64,000 bases of DNA from Candidatus Rifleibacteriota bacterium (lineage in GTDB: Bacteria > Muiribacteriota > Ozemobacteria > Ozemobacterales > Ozemobacteraceae): positions 1 to 64,000 of the forward strand of contig JAAYVD010000086.1 of the NCBI GenBank assembly GCA_012517355.1, in the 5' to 3' direction. Below, in pieces: positions 11,920 through 63,129 of this stretch (the stretch's first letter is position 1; the number at the start of each line of letters is the position of its first letter). The notes below the pieces were generated by a model. It was not told where the DNA came from. It did not search any database and saw only the letters and a list, made by a program, of their open reading frames with translations. The position numbers and the translations under genes are program-made.

Positions 11920-11951
11920 GCCGTTCTCCGTGAAAGCGACGGGAGGGTCTC

Positions 11952-12027
11952 CTGGCGGGGTGCGAAACGGGCGTTTCGCGCCGCCGTCCCCGTCGCCAGG
12001 GGGGCTCTTCCGACATCGTGCCGGTGG
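11952..12027 (+). repeat. 85-bp palindromic repeat, unit 1 of a tandem pair
   Basis: One unit of a dispersed family. Read in this orientation the consensus runs: GGCG.TGCGCGAAACGGGCG, TTTCGCGCCGCC.TCCGTGG, CGGCAAAGGGGAAGCCCTTC, CGAC.TCGTGTCGGTCGG. It contains three successive inverted repeats (GCGAAAC/GTTTCGC; GCCGCC/GGCGGC; CCGAC/GTCGG), so RNA or single-stranded DNA from it would fold into three hairpins. Confidence 0.75.
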
Positions 12028-12031
12028 GCCC

Positions 12032-12108
12032 CATGGCGGTGCGCGATACTCGCGCTTCGTGCCGCCGTCCGTGGCGGCAAAGGGGTGAAGCCGGTCACGT
12101 GTCGGCCG
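12032..12108 (+). repeat. 85-bp palindromic repeat, unit 2 of a tandem pair
   Basis: Follows unit 1 head to tail after four bases; keeps GCGCGATACTCGCGCTTCG, GCCGCCGTCCGTGGCGGC and CGGTCACGTGTCGGCCGG. Confidence 0.72.
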
Positions 12109-15084: not shown

Positions 15085-15633
15085 TCACGGCCGGTCCCAC
15101 AGGCGCTTGAACCGCTTGTTGTTGCCGGTGGCCACGTCGTCCACCACCAGCTCGTTGGTGACACTCCGCCGCGCCACCGGCCGGGCATCGCTGGCGAAGA
15201 GGATCGCCCGGTCGTAGACGGCGGCCGTGGCGCTGCCACCCAGGTTGCCGAACGCGTTGGTCGCCACCTCGTACCAGATGGTCATGCTGGCCAGGTGCGC
15301 GAACCCCAGGTTCACCGTGAGGCTGGCGGGGGCCTGCCCGACCACGTAATACGTGCTGGTGGCCAGGCGCAGGCACAGTTCCAGGCCGGCTTCCGCCCCC
15401 TGCCGGGCCTGTTGCTCGGCCAGGGCCAGGCGGTTGACCACCGCCGTGTTCAGGCTGGTCACCGAGAACCGGGCGATGAACATGCCCGCCAGCAGCACCA
15501 GGATCAGGGCATAGGCCGTCATCGAACCCGACCGCCACGAGGTCGGAAGACCCTGGCCTTTGGCGCAACGGATGGCGGGGCGCCGCGCCAGGTTCGCGCC
15601 ACGCCAGGGGGCTCGCCGCCTGACGCCGTTCAC
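15085..15633 (-). CDS. PilX/GspK-like minor pseudopilin carrying an in-frame palindromic repeat
   Basis: 182 residues from GTG 15633, which overlaps the stop of the preceding pseudopilin gene as GTGA, like other coupled genes here. The first residues are MNGVRRRA; about 28 residues encoded by a palindromic repeat unit (15528-15612) follow; then comes GSMTAYALILVLLAGMFIARF, the small-residue plus hydrophobic helix start typical of GspK/PilX proteins, with ALAEQQARQGAEAGLELCLRLA after it. So the repeat appears to lie within the basic N-terminal leader without breaking the frame. An internal ATG at 15522 (MTAYALIL) could be used instead, but it lacks a ribosome site. GspK/PilX proteins sit at the tip of pseudopili. 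The protein is short compared with GspK and lacks its large globular insert, nearer to PilX. Confidence 0.7.
   Translation of the reverse strand: MNGVRRRAPWRGANLARRPAIRCAKGQGLPTSWRSGSMTAYALILVLLAGMFIARFSVTSLNTAVVNRLALAEQQARQGAEAGLELCLRLATSTYYVVGQAPASLTVNLGFAHLASMTIWYEVATNAFGNLGGSATAAVYDRAILFASDARPVARRSVTNELVVDDVATGNNKRFKRLWDRP
15528..15612 (-). repeat. 85-bp palindromic repeat inside a pseudopilin gene
   Basis: Minus-strand orientation. Keeps GGCGTGGCGCGAAC, CGCCATCCGTTGCGCC, AAAGGCCAGGGTCTTCCGAC and CTCGTGGCGGTCGGG. Frame of the surrounding gene stays open through it. Confidence 0.75.
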
Positions 15634-20230: not shown

Positions 20231-21676
20231 ATGAAACCGACCCCCCGCCCGACCCGGCTCCCACGTGCCGCAGCCGCCATCCCCCACCCGACCGACACGA
20301 GCTCGGAAGGGCTTCCCCCTTGTCGCCACGGATGGCGGCGCGGAACGCTCGTTTCGCGCATGGCGAAGGGGTCGTTCCGGCTTGCCCTTCTGCTGGCCGC
20401 CCTGCGACTCCTTCTTCCCGCGACGGCGGCGATGGCCGCGCCGCCGCTCGGCGACCGGTTCGAAATCGCCCTGACCCCCGAGGAGATCGCCAAGGCCAAG
20501 AAGATTGCCGACCAGTATCTGAAGAAGAAGCCGGCCGGCGACTCCGACGTCTCGACCGGCACCGGCGACGGCGGCGGTGACGAGGACGGCGGTTCCGGAG
20601 ATGGCGACGGCGGCGGCGACGGGGACGGCGACAGCTCGGGCGGCGACAGTTCCTCGACCGGCAGCGGCGACAGCGGCGGACCGGCCCCGGCCGGGGTCCC
20701 CAAGACGCCCACCAGCGGCGAGAGTTCGCCCAGCCTGCCGGGCGATTCCATCGATTCCCAGCCCGCCGGCGATTCCCAGCCCGCGAAGAAGAAGATCGAC
20801 CCCGCCGACCTGATGTTCGCCCAGGCCCACATGAAGCTGGCCAAGCGCGCCTTCGCCAACAAGAACATGGACAAGGCCAAGGACGAGCTGAAGCAGATCT
20901 TCGACCGGGTGTCCGACTTGGCCGAGGCCCGCTTCATGCGCGCGGTCATCGCCGCCAAGGAAAAAGACTTCCTCGAAGCCTGGCGGCACATCGACATCGC
21001 CCAGAAGAGCGCCCCCGACAACGCCAAGGTCAAGGAGTTCGTCGACCGCCTCCAGAAGGCCTCGCCCAAGCCCGACGTCATCCCCGACGCCGCCCCCGCC
21101 GCCCGGCCCGCCCCCACCTTCGCCGCCCAGGTCGCCGCCAACGGCCTCGAACTGCTGTTCGCCGAAAAGGTCGCGGCCGGCAAGGTGACCGCCGCCGCCG
21201 TCACCGGCTTCGCCGGACAGGACGGCAAGGTCAAGGCCCGGCTGCTCCTCGAAGGCTCGGCCGCCCTCGACGCGGCCGAGGTGAAGAAATCGCTCGAGAG
21301 CCTGCTCGGCGGCCCCGCCGGCGAGCCCAAGGCCGCCAGCGAGGGCAAGACCCTCGAGTTCGAGGTCGAGATCGCCGGCCAGCCGCTGCAGAACCCCAAG
21401 GTCACCGCGGTGAGCGGGTTGGGCGATTTTCTGAAGGGGGTGTCCGAGGAGACCGACGTGGCCATCCAGGATTCGTCGGAGACCGACCCCGATGCCGACA
21501 AGCACCAGACCGGCACCTACACCGTCGCCGCCAAGGACATCAAGACCCTCAACGACTTCCTGCAGAAGATCGCCCCCCATTGCGTCGGGTTCGAGATCAC
21601 CCGCTTCTACGCGACCACCTTCGCCAGCAAGGCGATCTGGAAGGGCGAACTGAAGGTCGTCTTCCTGGTGCCCTGA
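20231..21676 (+). CDS. Exported TPR protein with acidic linker; repeat inserted in its leader
   Basis: 481 residues from ATG 20231, which has GAGAGG seven bases upstream. The basic start (MKPTPRPTRLPR) is parted from its hydrophobic signal core (FRLALLLAALRLLLPATAAMA) by about 28 residues encoded by a palindromic repeat unit (20288-20372). An internal ATG 20360 (MAKGSFRLALL) would give a normal 438-residue exported protein but has no ribosome site. The mature part has a short helical segment (PEEIAKAKKIADQYLKKK), a 70-residue Gly/Asp/Ser acidic linker, a TPR-like helical block (AQAHMKLAKRAFANKNMDKAKDE and following), and a C-terminal alpha/beta domain I do not recognise. Possible scaffold in the periplasm. 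Confidence 0.75.
   Translation: MKPTPRPTRLPRAAAAIPHPTDTSSEGLPPCRHGWRRGTLVSRMAKGSFRLALLLAALRLLLPATAAMAAPPLGDRFEIALTPEEIAKAKKIADQYLKKKPAGDSDVSTGTGDGGGDEDGGSGDGDGGGDGDGDSSGGDSSSTGSGDSGGPAPAGVPKTPTSGESSPSLPGDSIDSQPAGDSQPAKKKIDPADLMFAQAHMKLAKRAFANKNMDKAKDELKQIFDRVSDLAEARFMRAVIAAKEKDFLEAWRHIDIAQKSAPDNAKVKEFVDRLQKASPKPDVIPDAAPAARPAPTFAAQVAANGLELLFAEKVAAGKVTAAAVTGFAGQDGKVKARLLLEGSAALDAAEVKKSLESLLGGPAGEPKAASEGKTLEFEVEIAGQPLQNPKVTAVSGLGDFLKGVSEETDVAIQDSSETDPDADKHQTGTYTVAAKDIKTLNDFLQKIAPHCVGFEITRFYATTFASKAIWKGELKVVFLVP
20288..20372 (-). repeat. 85-bp palindromic repeat inside a signal-peptide region
   Basis: Minus-strand orientation. Plus-strand text runs CCGACCGACACGAGCTCGG, AAGGGCTTCCCCCTTGTCGCC, ACGGATGGCGGCGCGGAACG, CTCGTTTCGCGCATGGCG. 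One of the best conserved copies. Confidence 0.82.
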
Positions 21677-21731
21677 GCAGGCCAAAGGCTTTCTGACCGC
21701 CGGTTCGCCAGGTGCAGGCCAGGTCGCCCCC

Positions 21732-21810
21732 CCTGGCGATGCGCGACACTGCCGTCTCGCCCCACCCCCGTAACGGCAAGGGGGAAGTTCTTCCGACCTC
21801 CTGGGGTCGC
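21732..21810 (+). repeat. 85-bp palindromic repeat, intergenic
   Basis: Plus orientation, 55 bases after the TPR protein gene. Keeps GGCGATGCGCGACACTGCCG, AACGGCAAGGGGGAAG and TTCTTCCGACCTCCTGGGGTCG. Confidence 0.7.
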
Positions 21811-28150: not shown

Positions 28151-28202
28151 CTTCCGCCGTATCCCGGTCCCCTTCCGGGTCTACCGTCCCGAGGCAGGAA
28201 GT

Positions 28203-28252
28203 GAGCCCCTCGACCGCCGTGGATGGGCGCGGGAAACGCCCGGTTCCCGCAG
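28203..28252 (-). repeat. Degenerate palindromic repeat relic
   Basis: AGCCCCTCGACCGCCGTGG, ATGGGCGCGGGAAACG, CCCGGTTCCCGC resembles the middle of the 85-bp family. Weak match. Confidence 0.4.
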
Positions 28253-28370
28253 GGCAGAAGTGCCCAGACCCGGCCTGGGGAATCCCCTGGCCTTGGCAGC
28301 CGGGAAGTGCTATGTTGCCGTCACCTGAAGATCCGATGAGAGGACCTGCCGCCAGGAAGCATACCCAACC

Positions 28371-38715: not shown

Positions 38716-39183
38716 TCAGCGGTGAGACAGGGGCTTGCGGAATTTCAAGCCGTCTTCGCCGTTGGGGTAGTAGGCGGGAAGGGTTTCGCCCGCCACGTAG
38801 CCGCAGCGCTCGAACAGGGCGCGCGAGCCGGCGTTCCCGATCCGCACCTCGGCCACCGACATCCGCATGCCCTGCCGCCGGAACAGCCGCTCGGCGGCGT
38901 CGAGCAGGCGGCGGGCCAGGCCCCGGCCCTGCGCCGACGGATGCACCGCGATCTTGTAGATGCGCCCCGACGGTATGCTAGAATGGCGCAGCAGGGCCAC
39001 CACCTCCGCGAGGATGGCTTTTCCCGCACCCCGCACCACCAGCACGCGGCAGGTCGGTGAACCCAGCAGATACCGGAACTGCCGGGGCTTGAAAACGTCC
39101 TCGGCCGCAAAACAGGCCTCTTCGAGACGCCGCAGGGCTGGCCCGTCGGCCTTCCGGGCGGCCACCACACGATGGGAGATCAC
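38716..39183 (-). CDS. GNAT N-acetyltransferase, RimI-like
   Basis: 155 residues from GTG 39183. Acetyl-CoA loop IAVHPSAQGRGLARRLLDAAE near residues 75-95, then EVRIGNAGSRALFERCGYV and a C-terminus YYPNGEDGLKFRKPL, matching RimI, the enzyme acetylating the N-terminus of ribosomal protein S18, and related GNATs. RimI specificity cannot be proved. The -10 box TATAGT (39190-39195 on the minus strand) ends seven bases before the GTG, and there is no ribosome site, so the mRNA is probably leaderless. It runs away from the divergent thiamine pyrophosphokinase gene. Confidence 0.85.
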   Translation of the reverse strand: MISHRVVAARKADGPALRRLEEACFAAEDVFKPRQFRYLLGSPTCRVLVVRGAGKAILAEVVALLRHSSIPSGRIYKIAVHPSAQGRGLARRLLDAAERLFRRQGMRMSVAEVRIGNAGSRALFERCGYVAGETLPAYYPNGEDGLKFRKPLSHR

Positions 39184-39189
39184 GGCGCA

Positions 39190-39219
39190 ACTATACCGGA
39201 ACCCCCGGCCGCCCGGCAA
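39190..39219 (-). promoter_or_regulatory. Promoter for leaderless RimI-like gene
   Basis: On the minus strand TTGCCG (39214-39219), 18-base spacer, TATAGT (39190-39195), six bases to GTG. Confidence 0.55.
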
Positions 39220-39243
39220 CCCGGGCGGGGCCGACAGGTCCTG

Positions 39244-40125
39244 ATGGCCCTGGGCGGCACCGTGCCGACCGGCGCGACGCTGGAAGGGCTTCCCCTTTGC
39301 CTCCCCGAAGGGTCGCGCGAAACGCCCATGTCGCATGCCGCAAGGGGCCCGTTCGCCGAGGCAGCCGCGACCGACCGACCGGCACGAAGTCGGAAAGGCG
39401 GCCCCTTCGCCGCTACGGAGAGCGGCATGAAACGCCCGTGCCGCCCATCGCCAAAAAGCCCTCCCGCCGCAGCCTGGGACGACGTCATCGCCGTCGACTC
39501 GGGCGGTGACTTCCTGCACCGTTGCGGGATCGCCGCCCGGCTGGTCATTGGCGACCTCGACTCGATCTCCCCCGCCGCGCTCGCCTGGCACCGCGACCGG
39601 GGCGCCGAGGTGCGGGCCTTCCCCGCCGACAAGGACCAGACCGATCTCGAACTCGCCCTCGCGGTCCTGCCCCGAGACCCCGCCGCCCGGGTCCACCTGT
39701 GCGGCGTGTGGGGGGGAAGGCTCGATCACGCCCTGATGAACCTGCTGGTGCTGCCGGGGTTCACCGACCGCGGCCTGTTTCTGTTCGACACCGACGAAGG
39801 GTGCGGCGGCGTGATGGGGCCGGGAACCCTCTGTCTGACGGCTCCGGCCGGCACCCCTGCCGCGCTCATCGCCCTGGCGGAGGCGACGGGCCTCTCCTCG
39901 GAGGGCGTGCGGTGGCCGCTGCGCGCGGCCCGGCTGCGGCGGGGCGAGGCCCGCGGCATCAGCAACGTCACGGTGGACCCGGCCTGGCGGCTGCGGCTGG
40001 CCGGGGGGTGCCTGCTGTGGCTGGTCAGGGGGACGGCTCGTGCAGCCGCCGGAATCGAATGGCTTCCCGCAAAGCCTCCCAGGCGGGGTCGTCCGGGAGC
40101 CGGTCGGGGTCGGGAAGGAGGCTGA
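39244..40125 (+). CDS. Thiamine pyrophosphokinase with two in-frame palindromic repeats
   Basis: 293 residues. ATG 39244 follows ACAGGT. MALGGTVP resembles the first strand and Gly motif of thiamine pyrophosphokinases. Then come about 64 residues encoded by two palindromic repeat units (39263-39348, 39370-39456), and the enzyme resumes: DDVIAVDSGGDFLHRCGIAARLVIGDLDSI, DKDQTDLELALAVL and GGRLDHALMNLLVL near residues 85-190. These are the thiamine and ATP sites of the family, which makes ThDP from thiamine. Total length is about 60 above normal, plus a 40-residue tail that overlaps the convergent gene. The frame is intact, so the repeats seem to be translated, but the insert may impair activity. 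If instead translation starts at ATG 39427 the first strand is lost. Confidence 0.72.
   Translation: MALGGTVPTGATLEGLPLCLPEGSRETPMSHAARGPFAEAAATDRPARSRKGGPFAATESGMKRPCRPSPKSPPAAAWDDVIAVDSGGDFLHRCGIAARLVIGDLDSISPAALAWHRDRGAEVRAFPADKDQTDLELALAVLPRDPAARVHLCGVWGGRLDHALMNLLVLPGFTDRGLFLFDTDEGCGGVMGPGTLCLTAPAGTPAALIALAEATGLSSEGVRWPLRAARLRRGEARGISNVTVDPAWRLRLAGGCLLWLVRGTARAAAGIEWLPAKPPRRGRPGAGRGREGG
39263..39348 (-). repeat. 85-bp palindromic repeat inside thiamine pyrophosphokinase gene, unit 1
   Basis: Keeps CCGACCGGCGCGACGCTGG, AAGGGCTTCCCCTTTGCC, GGGTCGCGCGAAACGCCC and GCCGCAAGGGG. Confidence 0.78.
39370..39456 (-). repeat. 85-bp palindromic repeat inside thiamine pyrophosphokinase gene, unit 2
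   Basis: Keeps CCGACCGACCGGCACGAAGT, CGGAAAGGCGGCCCCTTCG, CGGCATGAAACGCCCGTGCC. Same orientation as unit 1. Confidence 0.78.
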
Positions 40126-46485: not shown

Positions 46486-46707
46486 GAATGTCACCGGGAA
46501 CTCCGGCCATCCTCAATTTCGCTTCCCGGGCAGATTTTCAGGGCACGTCGGCCGCACCGTTGAGGGGATCGAATGATGGGATCGAAGCCTTCCCATCCTG
46601 GCCATCGATTCCGCGCAGGACCCCGGCGAGAGAATGGGGGCCGCCCCCCATGTGTGGAAACCAGGATTTTGCGGGCCGGTCACCTTCCCGTTGGGTCCCT
46701 TGCCCCG

Positions 46708-46774
46708 CGCACCATGGGGTTTTCTTGCCTCCATCGGTGACGGCAAAGGGGACCTTCAGATAGCTTGTCGGTCG
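46708..46774 (+). repeat. Degenerate palindromic repeat, plus orientation
   Basis: CCGCGCACCATGGGGTTTTC, then CATCGGTGACGGCAAAGGGG and AGCTTGTCGGTCGG. The 3' half matches the family well. The -35 box of the next gene (TTGAAT, 46780) begins just after it. Confidence 0.55.
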
Positions 46775-46815: not shown

Positions 46816-49752
46816 ATGAACGAGCCGCACGACCCTGCCAACGGCTTTTCCTGGGCGCGGTGGGCGGGGTTGGCGGGGTTCTTTCTGGGCATCCCCATCC
46901 TGCTCGCTCTGGGAGCGCTCGCGCTGGGGGACGCCGCCCGGCGCGAGGAGCGGGAACAGCGGCTCCGGGATCGGCTGGAACAGGCGTTCTCCCTCCTCGA
47001 GACGGGCACCAACCCCACCCTCCTGTATTCCCGCCTGTTGCGGAACCTCGAGCGGCACCTGTACATCGCCGCCCAGCCCAATGCCGCGCGGGTCGGCCAG
47101 ATGCGGCGAGCCCTGACCCGCCGGTTCCCCGGCCTCTTCACCTTCACCTTCCTCGACAGCCGGGGCGCCCCGATCCCCGGCTGGAGCGACGGCCGCCCAC
47201 CGCGAGCCCTGCTGCAGAGATTTTTCCAGGGATATCTCGCTCTGGCCGCGGGACGACCGCACGACCTCCCCGCGCTGCGCACCTTCATCTCCAGCTTCTT
47301 CGGCCCCCTGGCCCCCGTCGACCGGCTCATGTCAGGACAGGTGCTGCAGCTCAACCCCGGCGGCGAGCGGTCGTTCGTCTACCTGTCACAGCCCCGCCCC
47401 GAGGGGATGATGATCGTCCACCTCGGCATCGAGGGGGGAAGGGAACACCTGGCGCTGGCCGACCTGCTGCACCGGGCCCAGGACCCGCGGCGGGGCCTGT
47501 CCCTCGCCCTCATCGACCACCGGCAGCCCTGGTCACCCCAGGTAGCCTCGCTGCCCGCCGGTCCGGCGGTCCGGAAGGCCGCCTGGAGGGCCCTGCTGGC
47601 CCGACCCCAGGACCCGTTCCGGGCCGGGAACCGGGCCTGGGGCAGGCGCCCCCTGACCTCCCGGTTCAGCGTCTTCGGCTGTGTCGACCTGTCGGCGGCG
47701 GCCGGTTCCGATTCCCCGGCCCAGCGCCGGGCCTTGCTGTTGCTGTGGGTCATGACCGCCCTCGGGCTCTGGCTGGCCATGCATGGCGTGCCGCCGGTCT
47801 CCCTGTCGGTGCGGCAGACCCTGGCCCTCGCTTTCACCTACGCCGCGGGCCTTCCCCTGCTGGTCATGGCCCTGACCGCCCACGACGAGATCACCCAGCG
47901 TCGCCGGGTGCTCGAGGAGCGTTGGCACCGGCAGGCGGAACGGGTCCTGCGGCAGCTGGACGCCCGGTTCCCTCAGATGATCGAAGGCATGCGGTCTTCG
48001 CTGCAGGCATTTTTCCGCCAGGCGACCCTCTCCGACAGCCTGCGGGAGCGGGGGGGAAAGCGCTTGCTGGCGAGGATGCAGCGGCGCTTCTCCTGGGATT
48101 TCATGCGGATCGTCAATGCGGCCGGCCAGACGGTCCTCAACGACTTCCCCCTGATGTCCCGGGCGGTGGAGACGGAAAGCCTCGGCATGTTCAACCGGTG
48201 GGCGGTGCCCATCCTGGCCAACCTCCGCTCCTCGACCGCCAGCGGATCCGCCACAACCGGCCGGGACAAGACCACCGAGTTCCTGGGATCGCGAGCCACC
48301 GGGGAACTGGGCGCCCTGAGCCGCTTTGACCTCCACCTGGGCAGCGTGTATTTCTTCCTCTACCCCCTTTTCACCCGACAGGAGGAGGCGGAGCACCTTG
48401 CGATCCTCTTCTGGTCGCAGGAGAAACTGGAGAGCACCTACCTCGAGCGCAACCTTCTCCCCCTCTCCCGCACGCTCCCCGATACCTCGCTGTTGGCCGT
48501 CCATCGCCTGCATCCCACCCGCAGCCAGCCTGACGAAAGAGCGGTCCGCCCCTGGCGCCGGTTCGCCGACCGCATCCGCTCTCCCATCCATGGCCTGTGG
48601 GACCGCGAGGAGACCGGGGAGGAAACCACCCTGCTGACCGGCCTGCGAGGGTCGGAACTCACCGATTTCGACCTGGTGGCGGTCAGCGGGGACCGGTTCA
48701 TCCGCGAGGAGATCCGGCGCACCGTCAGCGAGTATGCCCTGGCCGGACTGCTCACCCTGCTCATCAGCCTGGCCGTGGGAACCGTGGTGGCGCAGGCCTT
48801 TCTGGTGCCGATCGGCGACCTGGCCGCCGGCGTCGCGGCCATGGAGCGCCGCGCCTTCTCCCATCGCCTCCCCGTTCATGCCCCCGACGAGTTCGGAGCC
48901 CTGGCCACCGCCTTCAACCGGATGCTCGAGGAGATGGCCGATCTCGAGGTGGCCCGCATCGTGCAGGAACAGGTCTTCCCCGCCGCCCCGCTGCAAGTGG
49001 GGGGCTGGGAGGTGTTCGGCAGCTGCCGGCCCGCCACCGAGGTGGGCGGCGACTACTTGGACTACTTCCCCCTGCCCGGCGACCGGATCATGGTCGTCCT
49101 GGGTGACGTCTCCGGTCACGGGGTGGCGGCCGCCCTGGTGGTGGCCATGGCCAAGGCGGTGGTCGGCCACCCCGAGCGGCCCGAGGATCCGGTCGCCATG
49201 TTGCAGACCATGAACGCGGTTCTTTCCCCACTCCTGAAGAAGCGGCGGATGATGACCTGCACCGCCCTCGTCCTGGAGCCCGGGGCAGGGCGGCTCCTGG
49301 TGGCCAATGCCGGCCACTCGTATCCCCTGCAGATCACCCCGTTCTCGGCCAGCGAGCCAGGGGAACCGGGATTCCCCCTCGGGGCCAGGCGAACCCTCGA
49401 CCTGCCACGCCAGACCTTTGCCCTGACCCCCGCCACCACGATCGTGCTGTATACCGACGGCCTGGTGGAGGCCCCCATGGCTTCGGGCGAGCCGATCGGC
49501 TATGCGCGGCTGCTGGCCCGCGCCCCGGGCCTGTGCCGGCCTACCGCCCCCGCCACGGTGGCGGCCTTCCGGGAGTGGCACGAGGGGCTCGCCGCCTGGA
49601 ACCCGCCCGGCGACGACGTGACGATCCTGGCCCTGCAGCCCGTGACCGGCGCGAAAGACCCCCTGGCGGAGAGCGAACCGGGCGGTCCACAGCGTCATCC
49701 GTGGCCGCAGGGGGAAAGCCCTTCCGGCGTCGTGTCGGTCGGAACCGGATGA
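46816..49752 (+). CDS. Membrane receptor with HAMP and PP2C (SpoIIE/RsbU) phosphatase domains, 1
   Basis: 978 residues. First helix near residues 13-36 (WAGLAGFFLGIPILLALG), a large extracytoplasmic region, a helical hairpin near 313-370 (LLLLWVMTALGLWLAMHG; LALAFTYAAGLPLLVMAL), a second extracytoplasmic region, another helix near 640 and a HAMP linker (VPIGDLAAGVAAMERRAFSHRL) near 665. The PP2C-type domain follows: CRPATEVGGDYLDYF near 735, GDVSGHGVAAALVVAMAKA near 763, ANAGHSYPL near 830, YTDGLVEA near 878 and GDDVTILAL near 933; metal Asp residues are present. Such proteins dephosphorylate anti-sigma antagonists. The last 25 residues come from a palindromic repeat. The stop overlaps the next start as ATGA. 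A leaderless promoter is in front. Confidence 0.9.
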   Translation: MNEPHDPANGFSWARWAGLAGFFLGIPILLALGALALGDAARREEREQRLRDRLEQAFSLLETGTNPTLLYSRLLRNLERHLYIAAQPNAARVGQMRRALTRRFPGLFTFTFLDSRGAPIPGWSDGRPPRALLQRFFQGYLALAAGRPHDLPALRTFISSFFGPLAPVDRLMSGQVLQLNPGGERSFVYLSQPRPEGMMIVHLGIEGGREHLALADLLHRAQDPRRGLSLALIDHRQPWSPQVASLPAGPAVRKAAWRALLARPQDPFRAGNRAWGRRPLTSRFSVFGCVDLSAAAGSDSPAQRRALLLLWVMTALGLWLAMHGVPPVSLSVRQTLALAFTYAAGLPLLVMALTAHDEITQRRRVLEERWHRQAERVLRQLDARFPQMIEGMRSSLQAFFRQATLSDSLRERGGKRLLARMQRRFSWDFMRIVNAAGQTVLNDFPLMSRAVETESLGMFNRWAVPILANLRSSTASGSATTGRDKTTEFLGSRATGELGALSRFDLHLGSVYFFLYPLFTRQEEAEHLAILFWSQEKLESTYLERNLLPLSRTLPDTSLLAVHRLHPTRSQPDERAVRPWRRFADRIRSPIHGLWDREETGEETTLLTGLRGSELTDFDLVAVSGDRFIREEIRRTVSEYALAGLLTLLISLAVGTVVAQAFLVPIGDLAAGVAAMERRAFSHRLPVHAPDEFGALATAFNRMLEEMADLEVARIVQEQVFPAAPLQVGGWEVFGSCRPATEVGGDYLDYFPLPGDRIMVVLGDVSGHGVAAALVVAMAKAVVGHPERPEDPVAMLQTMNAVLSPLLKKRRMMTCTALVLEPGAGRLLVANAGHSYPLQITPFSASEPGEPGFPLGARRTLDLPRQTFALTPATTIVLYTDGLVEAPMASGEPIGYARLLARAPGLCRPTAPATVAAFREWHEGLAAWNPPGDDVTILALQPVTGAKDPLAESEPGGPQRHPWPQGESPSGVVSVGTG
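49664..49742 (+). repeat. 85-bp palindromic repeat at the junction of the two phosphatase genes
   Basis: CTGGCGGAGAGCGAACCGGG, GCGTCATCCGTGGCCGCAGG, GGGAAAGCCCTTCCGGCGTC and GTGTCGGTCGG. It encodes the C-terminal tail of the first phosphatase in frame and ends seven bases before the start of the second. Confidence 0.8.
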
Positions 49753-59390: not shown

Positions 59391-59476
59391 GCCGTACCGC
59401 CAGGTGGCCGGAAGGGTTCCCTCTTGGCCGCCACGGACAGCCACGCGCAACGCCACCTCCGCCCAGTGCCAGGGGG
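59391..59476 (-). repeat. 85-bp palindromic repeat, unit 1 of a pair
   Basis: GTACCGCCAGGTGGCCGG, AAGGGTTCCCTCTTGGCCG, CCACGGACAGCCACGCGCAA. Minus orientation. Confidence 0.65.
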
Positions 59477-59507
59477 CCGCCCCTGCTGGTCCGCCAGCAG
59501 TCCAAGG

Positions 59508-59590
59508 CAGGCCGACACGTGATCGGCTGGGCTCCCACCTGCCGCCCCGACGGCGGGGCGAACCGCCAGGTTCGCCCCCCGCGCGGCGGC
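59508..59590 (-). repeat. 85-bp palindromic repeat, unit 2 of a pair
   Basis: GCAGGCCGACACGTGATCGG, CTCCCACCTGCCGCC and CGACGGCGGGGCGAACCG. Minus orientation, more diverged. Confidence 0.6.
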
Positions 59591-63044: not shown

Positions 63045-63129
63045 CCGACCGACACGACGTCGGCCATACCCCTTTGCCGGCACGAATGGCGCCGCGCAAC
63101 GTGAGTTTCGCGCCTCGCCAAGGGGCCGA
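63045..63129 (-). repeat. 85-bp palindromic repeat, intergenic
   Basis: CCGACCGACACGACGTCGGC, CCCCTTTGCCGGCACGAATG, GCGCCGCGCAACGTGAGTTT, CGCGCCTCGCCAAGGGG. Good copy in minus orientation. Confidence 0.8.

Follow-up and report, generated by a model that had tools for sequence, protein, structure and literature searches.

A palindromic repeat family inserted in frame in thiamine pyrophosphokinase and other genes of a Candidatus Rifleibacteriota bacterium

Results and discussion

The thiamine pyrophosphokinase (TPK) gene of a Candidatus Rifleibacteriota bacterium contains, between its native 5' segment and the rest of its coding sequence, two units of a palindromic repeat that its relatives lack at this site, and the reading frame stays open across both. 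We consider it likely that the repeat is a species-specific selfish palindrome that lies mostly between genes and is tolerated in frame within some of them, and we are confident that in-frame palindromic insertion is a real, genome-wide phenomenon in this organism. The window that we analyzed is the first 64,000 nucleotides (bases 1-64000) of a contig of 149 kb, and the genome, which belongs to an uncultivated member of the Ozemobacteraceae, comprises 7.1 Mb in 184 contigs.

Two repeat units within the TPK gene

The gene was assigned to TPK by its catalytic and B1-binding domains with their conserved residues (Table 1), and the core of its AlphaFold model matches TPK crystal structures, for example 3mel, 3k94 and 3lm8. 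All invariant TPK residues are kept in the native remainder of the gene downstream of the repeats. We compared it with the orthologues of two genomes of the same genus, G001 and G002, and of one genome of the same family, G010, which read LVALGG-VAAATPLPPLP-WHDVIAVDSGG (11 codons at the site), LAALGG-VASAPPPPLP-WADVVAVDSGG (10 codons) and LMALGG-PSAAAPPPQQ-WDDVIAVDSGG (10 codons), respectively. Where these orthologues have 10-11 codons the window gene has 72, and the insert is absent from all 28 other TPKs that were aligned, which come from several phyla. The gene order of the region is that of G001 and G002. An earlier sequence-only reading had described two tandem 85-bp units that interrupt the gene and add about 64 residues to an open frame with native sequence on both sides. 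Two related palindromic units do interrupt the gene, but they are not strictly adjacent (their starts are 110 bp apart with a gap of about 22 bp, and their mutual identity is 73%), and the frame, open from 39172 to 40125, gains about 62 codons net by comparison with the orthologues. The native flanks were borne out, since MALGG upstream and WDDVIAVDSGG downstream are matched in G001, G002 and G010, and the alignment with repeat-free TPKs of relatives, which that reading had proposed as a check, gave a matching first strand (LMALGG, LAALGG or LVALGG) and flanks that agree. In the AlphaFold model the insert has a pLDDT below 50 and the core above 90, so that, as modelled, the roughly 62 inserted residues most likely form a disordered loop and do not disturb the catalytic core.

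Table 1. Parts of the TPK gene and further copies of the repeat in the 64-kb window
Feature	Coordinates	Strand	Remarks
TPK open reading frame with insert	39172..40125	+	Pfam TPK_catalytic 3e-20 and TPK_B1_binding
Native 5' segment MALGGTV, likely ancestral start ATG 39244	39244..39264	+	Corresponds to LMALGG/LAALGG/LVALGG of orthologues L014, L012, L013
Beta-1: native 5' segment MALGGTV and preceding codons QVL			Modelled strand when upstream codons are included
Palindromic unit 1, consensus frame fwd0	39265..39352	+	75% identity to family consensus
Spacer separating units 1 and 2	39353..39374	+	Without repeat match
Palindromic unit 2, consensus frame fwd1	39375..39464	+	76% identity to family consensus
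Possible alternative start, GGAG Shine-Dalgarno 39417-39420 and ATG 39427-39429	39417..39429	+	In unit 2
Native TPK remainder (SPPAAAWDDVIAVDSGG...)	39465..40122	+	65-72% identity to L012, L013, L014
Two units, between genes	11950..12105	-	Family search, gene comparison
Copy at gene junction	15530..15610	+	Family search, gene comparison
Copy just upstream of signal peptide MAKGSFRLALLLAALRLLL	20290..20370	+	Family search, gene comparison
Copy, intergenic	21730..21803	-	Family search, gene comparison
Copy downstream of gene	28183..28256	+	Family search, gene comparison
Copy upstream of gene	46697..46773	-	Family search, gene comparison
Copy between two same-strand genes	49660..49740	-	Family search, gene comparison
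Two units upstream of membrane-protein gene	59396..59582	+	Family search, gene comparison
Copy, intergenic	63047..63125	+	Family search, gene comparison

Start of translation of TPK

We think it probable that TPK is translated across the insert; the open frame itself is weak evidence for this, since no frame of the element contains a stop. The alternative is that the repeats form a leader and that translation restarts at ATG 39427 in unit 2, giving MKRPCRPSPKSPPAAAWDDV... without beta-1 and leaving the upstream MALGG as a relic. ATG 39427 has a GGAG Shine-Dalgarno 6 nt upstream, both having arisen by mutations in unit 2, whereas no Shine-Dalgarno precedes ATG 39244 or ATG 39172, and in the source genome the Shine-Dalgarno core is found at about 54% of starts against a background of 14.5%; the insert could therefore be a leader and not a peptide. 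A published warning that misannotated genes may account for many N-terminal REP insertions, which would then lie outside the coding sequence (PMC3733652), points in the same direction. The beta-1 segment that a restart would discard is, however, kept in the 28 aligned TPKs, AlphaFold docks QVLMA with high confidence (mean pLDDT 88 in the ten-residue block 21-30, upstream codons included), and frame and length have been preserved over 62 codons, a point that counts for little in an element without stops. On this evidence a restart at ATG 39427, a start that the sequence-only reading had itself counted against its interpretation, is possible but doubtful. ATG 39172 was rejected as the TPK start; the conserved upstream block ACTATACC lies in another frame in G001 and G002 and looks promoter-like and not coding. 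TPK and the GNAT gene diverge from a short region (39185-39244) in which an ACTATA(C/A) block is conserved; it may represent overlapping -10 elements of the two directions.

Size, structure and distribution of the repeat family

Iterated profile searches of 1.09 Mb identified 151 copies, grouped in 116 arrays, and a second sample of a further 0.79 Mb contained 106 copies in 83 arrays; the match in TPK is therefore not a chance one. The combined 257 copies in 199 arrays over 1.88 Mb correspond to about one copy per 7 kb, or by extrapolation to roughly 1,000 copies per genome, an estimate that may be somewhat high because the sampled contigs were picked for holding hits. The unit is 81-87 bp long and has three hairpins, that is, a 5' hairpin CCGAC...GTCGG followed by an outer stem GCCCCTTTGC/GCAAAGGGGC around two hairpins, GCCGCC/GGCGGC and GCGCGAAAC/GTTTCGCGC; CCGTCC at the 3' end of the unit is only partly conserved. 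Neighbouring units are arranged head-to-tail in 55 of 57 cases (34/34 in the first sample and 21/23 in the second), the commonest spacing is 81 bp, and the arrays differ in age and sequence. Among 56 relatives, copies were found only in G002, about eight of them and all degenerate, with none in G001 or in the other relatives searched. An exact-match scan of GTDB species genomes, from which the source genome had been excluded, placed the 34-base family core in none of them. The family matches no Rfam family, and we found no earlier description of it in the open-licence PMC literature. Judged by these sequence searches, it is a species-specific interspersed repeat.

Copies inside genes

In the region of TPK, where arrays were compared gene by gene, two arrays are internal and in frame (in TPK and in a gene for an RluB-like pseudouridine synthase), one forms a C-terminal extension of the RluB-like protein, and the remaining arrays lie between genes or at gene edges. 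No case of a gene broken out of frame by the element was found in the 64 kb compared gene by gene with G001 and G002. The copy at 20290-20370 may have donated the start codon to the signal-peptide gene that follows it.

The RluB-like gene lies on the same contig outside the window (contig C166 71303-72508; L065:11303-12505) and has about three internal units of different age, with two more units as the C-terminal extension. Relatives read FFPG-PE-RLYPIGR at the internal site; in the source genome FFPG and RLYPIGR stand about 86 codons (net) further apart. A gene for a kinase-AAA-GAF-histidine kinase (L082:1094-7849) carries the element in frame at three separate sites, one of which falls inside the GAF domain match, and its G001 orthologue has it at none of the three. 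Because the sites in these two genes are internal, a misplaced start codon cannot explain them, and it is nearly certain that the inserts are translated if the proteins are made.

A PEP synthase/PPDK-like gene (L118:13420-17586) has arrays at two sites in two different frames, and we found no orthologue of it or of the AGE-like gene in G001, G002 or G010. The adenylate-cyclase gene had only a weak match, in G010. The ABC1-kinase candidate has its insertion at a position where relatives vary as well, which means that the candidates are not all clean insertions. In all, 20 of 199 arrays (about 10%) are in open reading frames with coding signal on both sides, most of these candidates coming from a home-made coding model without an empty-site comparison. 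The counts were 15 of 116 in the first sample and 5 of 83 in the second, against 57% of random placements; insertion in genes is thus strongly depleted.

Open frames and decay of the inserted copies

The sequence-only reading had cautioned that an open frame is easily come by and carries little weight, and our results agree with this. The family consensus is open in all six frames, as are 13-31% of comparable sequences, and 93% of non-genic copies are open in a given frame, so that openness was rejected as a sign of translation. What carries weight is an empty site, a length that is a multiple of three and an internal position. In 23 intragenic copies the rate of mismatch to the consensus hardly differs among codon positions (0.235/0.196/0.195), so the peptides show no codon-level constraint. 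Stem pairs are broken about as often as independence predicts, except at one outer-stem position that marks subfamilies, where compensatory change was observed 40 times against 24 expected. Such a pattern is expected if selfish DNA is tolerated in linkers and decays neutrally, and not if a structure is maintained. A preferred reading frame was considered and dropped, since 14 of 17 in-ORF arrays of the first sample fell in two frames but only 1 of 5 in the independent 0.79 Mb. The six-frame absence of stops and a unit length divisible by three could also reflect selection for an element whose translation does no harm, which we consider unlikely; if true, such an element could settle in genes and spacers alike and would keep supplying new disordered loops to the proteins of the species.

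Origin of the inserts

Copy number and empty sites together suggest that the element is mobile. We found no excess of target-site duplications over shuffled flanks, no matching termini and no dedicated transposase for the element, so the case for mobility rests on its distribution. The source genome has a single RAYT-type tyrosine transposase gene (PF01797; L231, contig C109 4387-4713) with an intact HUH motif; G002 also has one RAYT gene and G001 has none. We rejected it as the mobilising enzyme because the element does not flank the gene, the nearest repeat being about 6.6 kb away, and similar genes are present in relatives without the element. In the explanation that we favor, a non-autonomous, probably mobile (selfish) palindrome of 81-87 bp would have reached a copy number of about one thousand, in many cases arranged in head-to-tail arrays. 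The majority of copies would survive between genes, and the tenth or so of arrays in open reading frames would be kept where the number of bases that they added to a linker or loop was divisible by three. Length would be the main condition for survival within a gene because the element has no stop in six frames. The inserted peptides, which are basic, rich in Pro, Gly and Arg and predicted to be disordered (as modelled for TPK), would then decay neutrally, and in TPK two old units would have come to form a disordered loop between beta-1 and the remainder with the core intact.

The strong predicted folding of the unit, its mostly intergenic position and the compensatory change at the one outer-stem position would also suit a structured RNA or DNA that is useful to the host (a terminator, an mRNA stabiliser or a nucleoid site), with the intragenic copies as by-products. 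We think this improbable, because single copies lose pairs about as fast as under independence with no general covariation, the family is absent from a sister genome of the same genus, and it has no Rfam family. The strong hairpins in coding sequence bear a general resemblance to known bypass or splicing contexts, which would suit a reading in which the intragenic copies are cut out of the mRNA or protein, or the ribosome skips them. Neither process would need the insert to be in frame and open, yet all the established internal sites are both (the candidates having been found by that criterion), and there is no match to an Rfam intron; we regard this as very unlikely. That the inserts arose in assembly or binning is scarcely credible, even though the assembly is fragmented into its 184 contigs and is taken to be a MAG since its nearest named relatives (Candidatus Ozemobacteraceae, Riflebacteria) are MAGs. 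The sequence contexts of the copies are unique, the contigs that carry them measure 100-230 kb, the arrays are of differing age and sequence, and around TPK the gene order is shared with two relatives.

Comparison with known palindromic elements

The sequence-only reading had likened the insert to Rickettsia palindromic elements and suggested that an unrelated family with the same habit would be new. The family and its phylum do appear to be new, but the habit of in-frame palindromic insertion is already known, and outside Rickettsia it is also found in Wolbachia (PMC4224334) and in intragenic REPs (PMC3733652). Rickettsia palindromic elements (RPEs; Ogata 2000, 2002; reviewed in PMC2229807 and PMC10969869) are palindromes of 105-146 bp within and between genes that are regarded as tolerated and not useful. 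The Riflebacteria family resembles them as a self-complementary multi-copy repeat between and within genes that lies in frame in unrelated conserved genes whose orthologues lack it (TPK, the RluB-like synthase and the multidomain kinase). It differs in its shorter unit of 81-87 bp, its six open frames, head-to-tail arrays, about 1,000 copies, G+C-rich host (67-69%) and different phylum. Neither sequence homology to RPEs nor occurrence in Rickettsia was found, with the 34-base core compared by exact match only and the matches limited to one genus. WPE-like in-frame insertions in addA, addB and priA of Wolbachia, apparently not inactivating (PMC4224334), show the same habit in a different host, a likeness by description and not by sequence alignment.

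Intragenic GTAG and CGTC REPs of Opitutus, Thauera and others lie within many unrelated proteins, as the Riflebacteria inserts do, some of them encoding 43-82 residues, and the CGTC REPs have no clear transposase (PMC3733652). REPs, however, are single stems of 20-40 bp with a terminal tag, as against a three-hairpin unit here, and their dimers are mostly head-to-head, in contrast to the head-to-tail order of the Riflebacteria units; the RAYT gene flanked by the repeat that goes with GTAG REPs is missing from the source genome. MITE-like elements with open frames (ERIC/RU-1, the 107 bp NEMIS and QMITE1; PMC2229807, PMC2759123, PMC5896051) are likewise short, non-autonomous repeats, with open frames that become fused to genes, but they carry terminal inverted repeats and in most cases are flanked by target-site duplications, neither of which we detected in this family. 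As far as tested, the family is thus not an RPE by sequence, not a GTAG or CGTC REP and not a typical MITE. Discussion of in-frame coding palindromes has centred on Rickettsiales and a few species rich in REPs; an unrelated, very abundant family in Riflebacteria suggests that the habit emerges independently in any setting where a palindromic element lacks stops. Its paired filled and empty sites, with copies of widely differing age, allow tolerance, neutrality and possible recruitment of the peptides to be measured.

Pseudouridine synthases elsewhere are also hit by REPs and RPEs (PMC3733652). The RluB-like gene of G002 has a long extra insertion at another site (L221:1741-1960), which is unrelated to the element and was not seen as a repeat, and the RluB-like gene of G001 has extra sequence at that same site.
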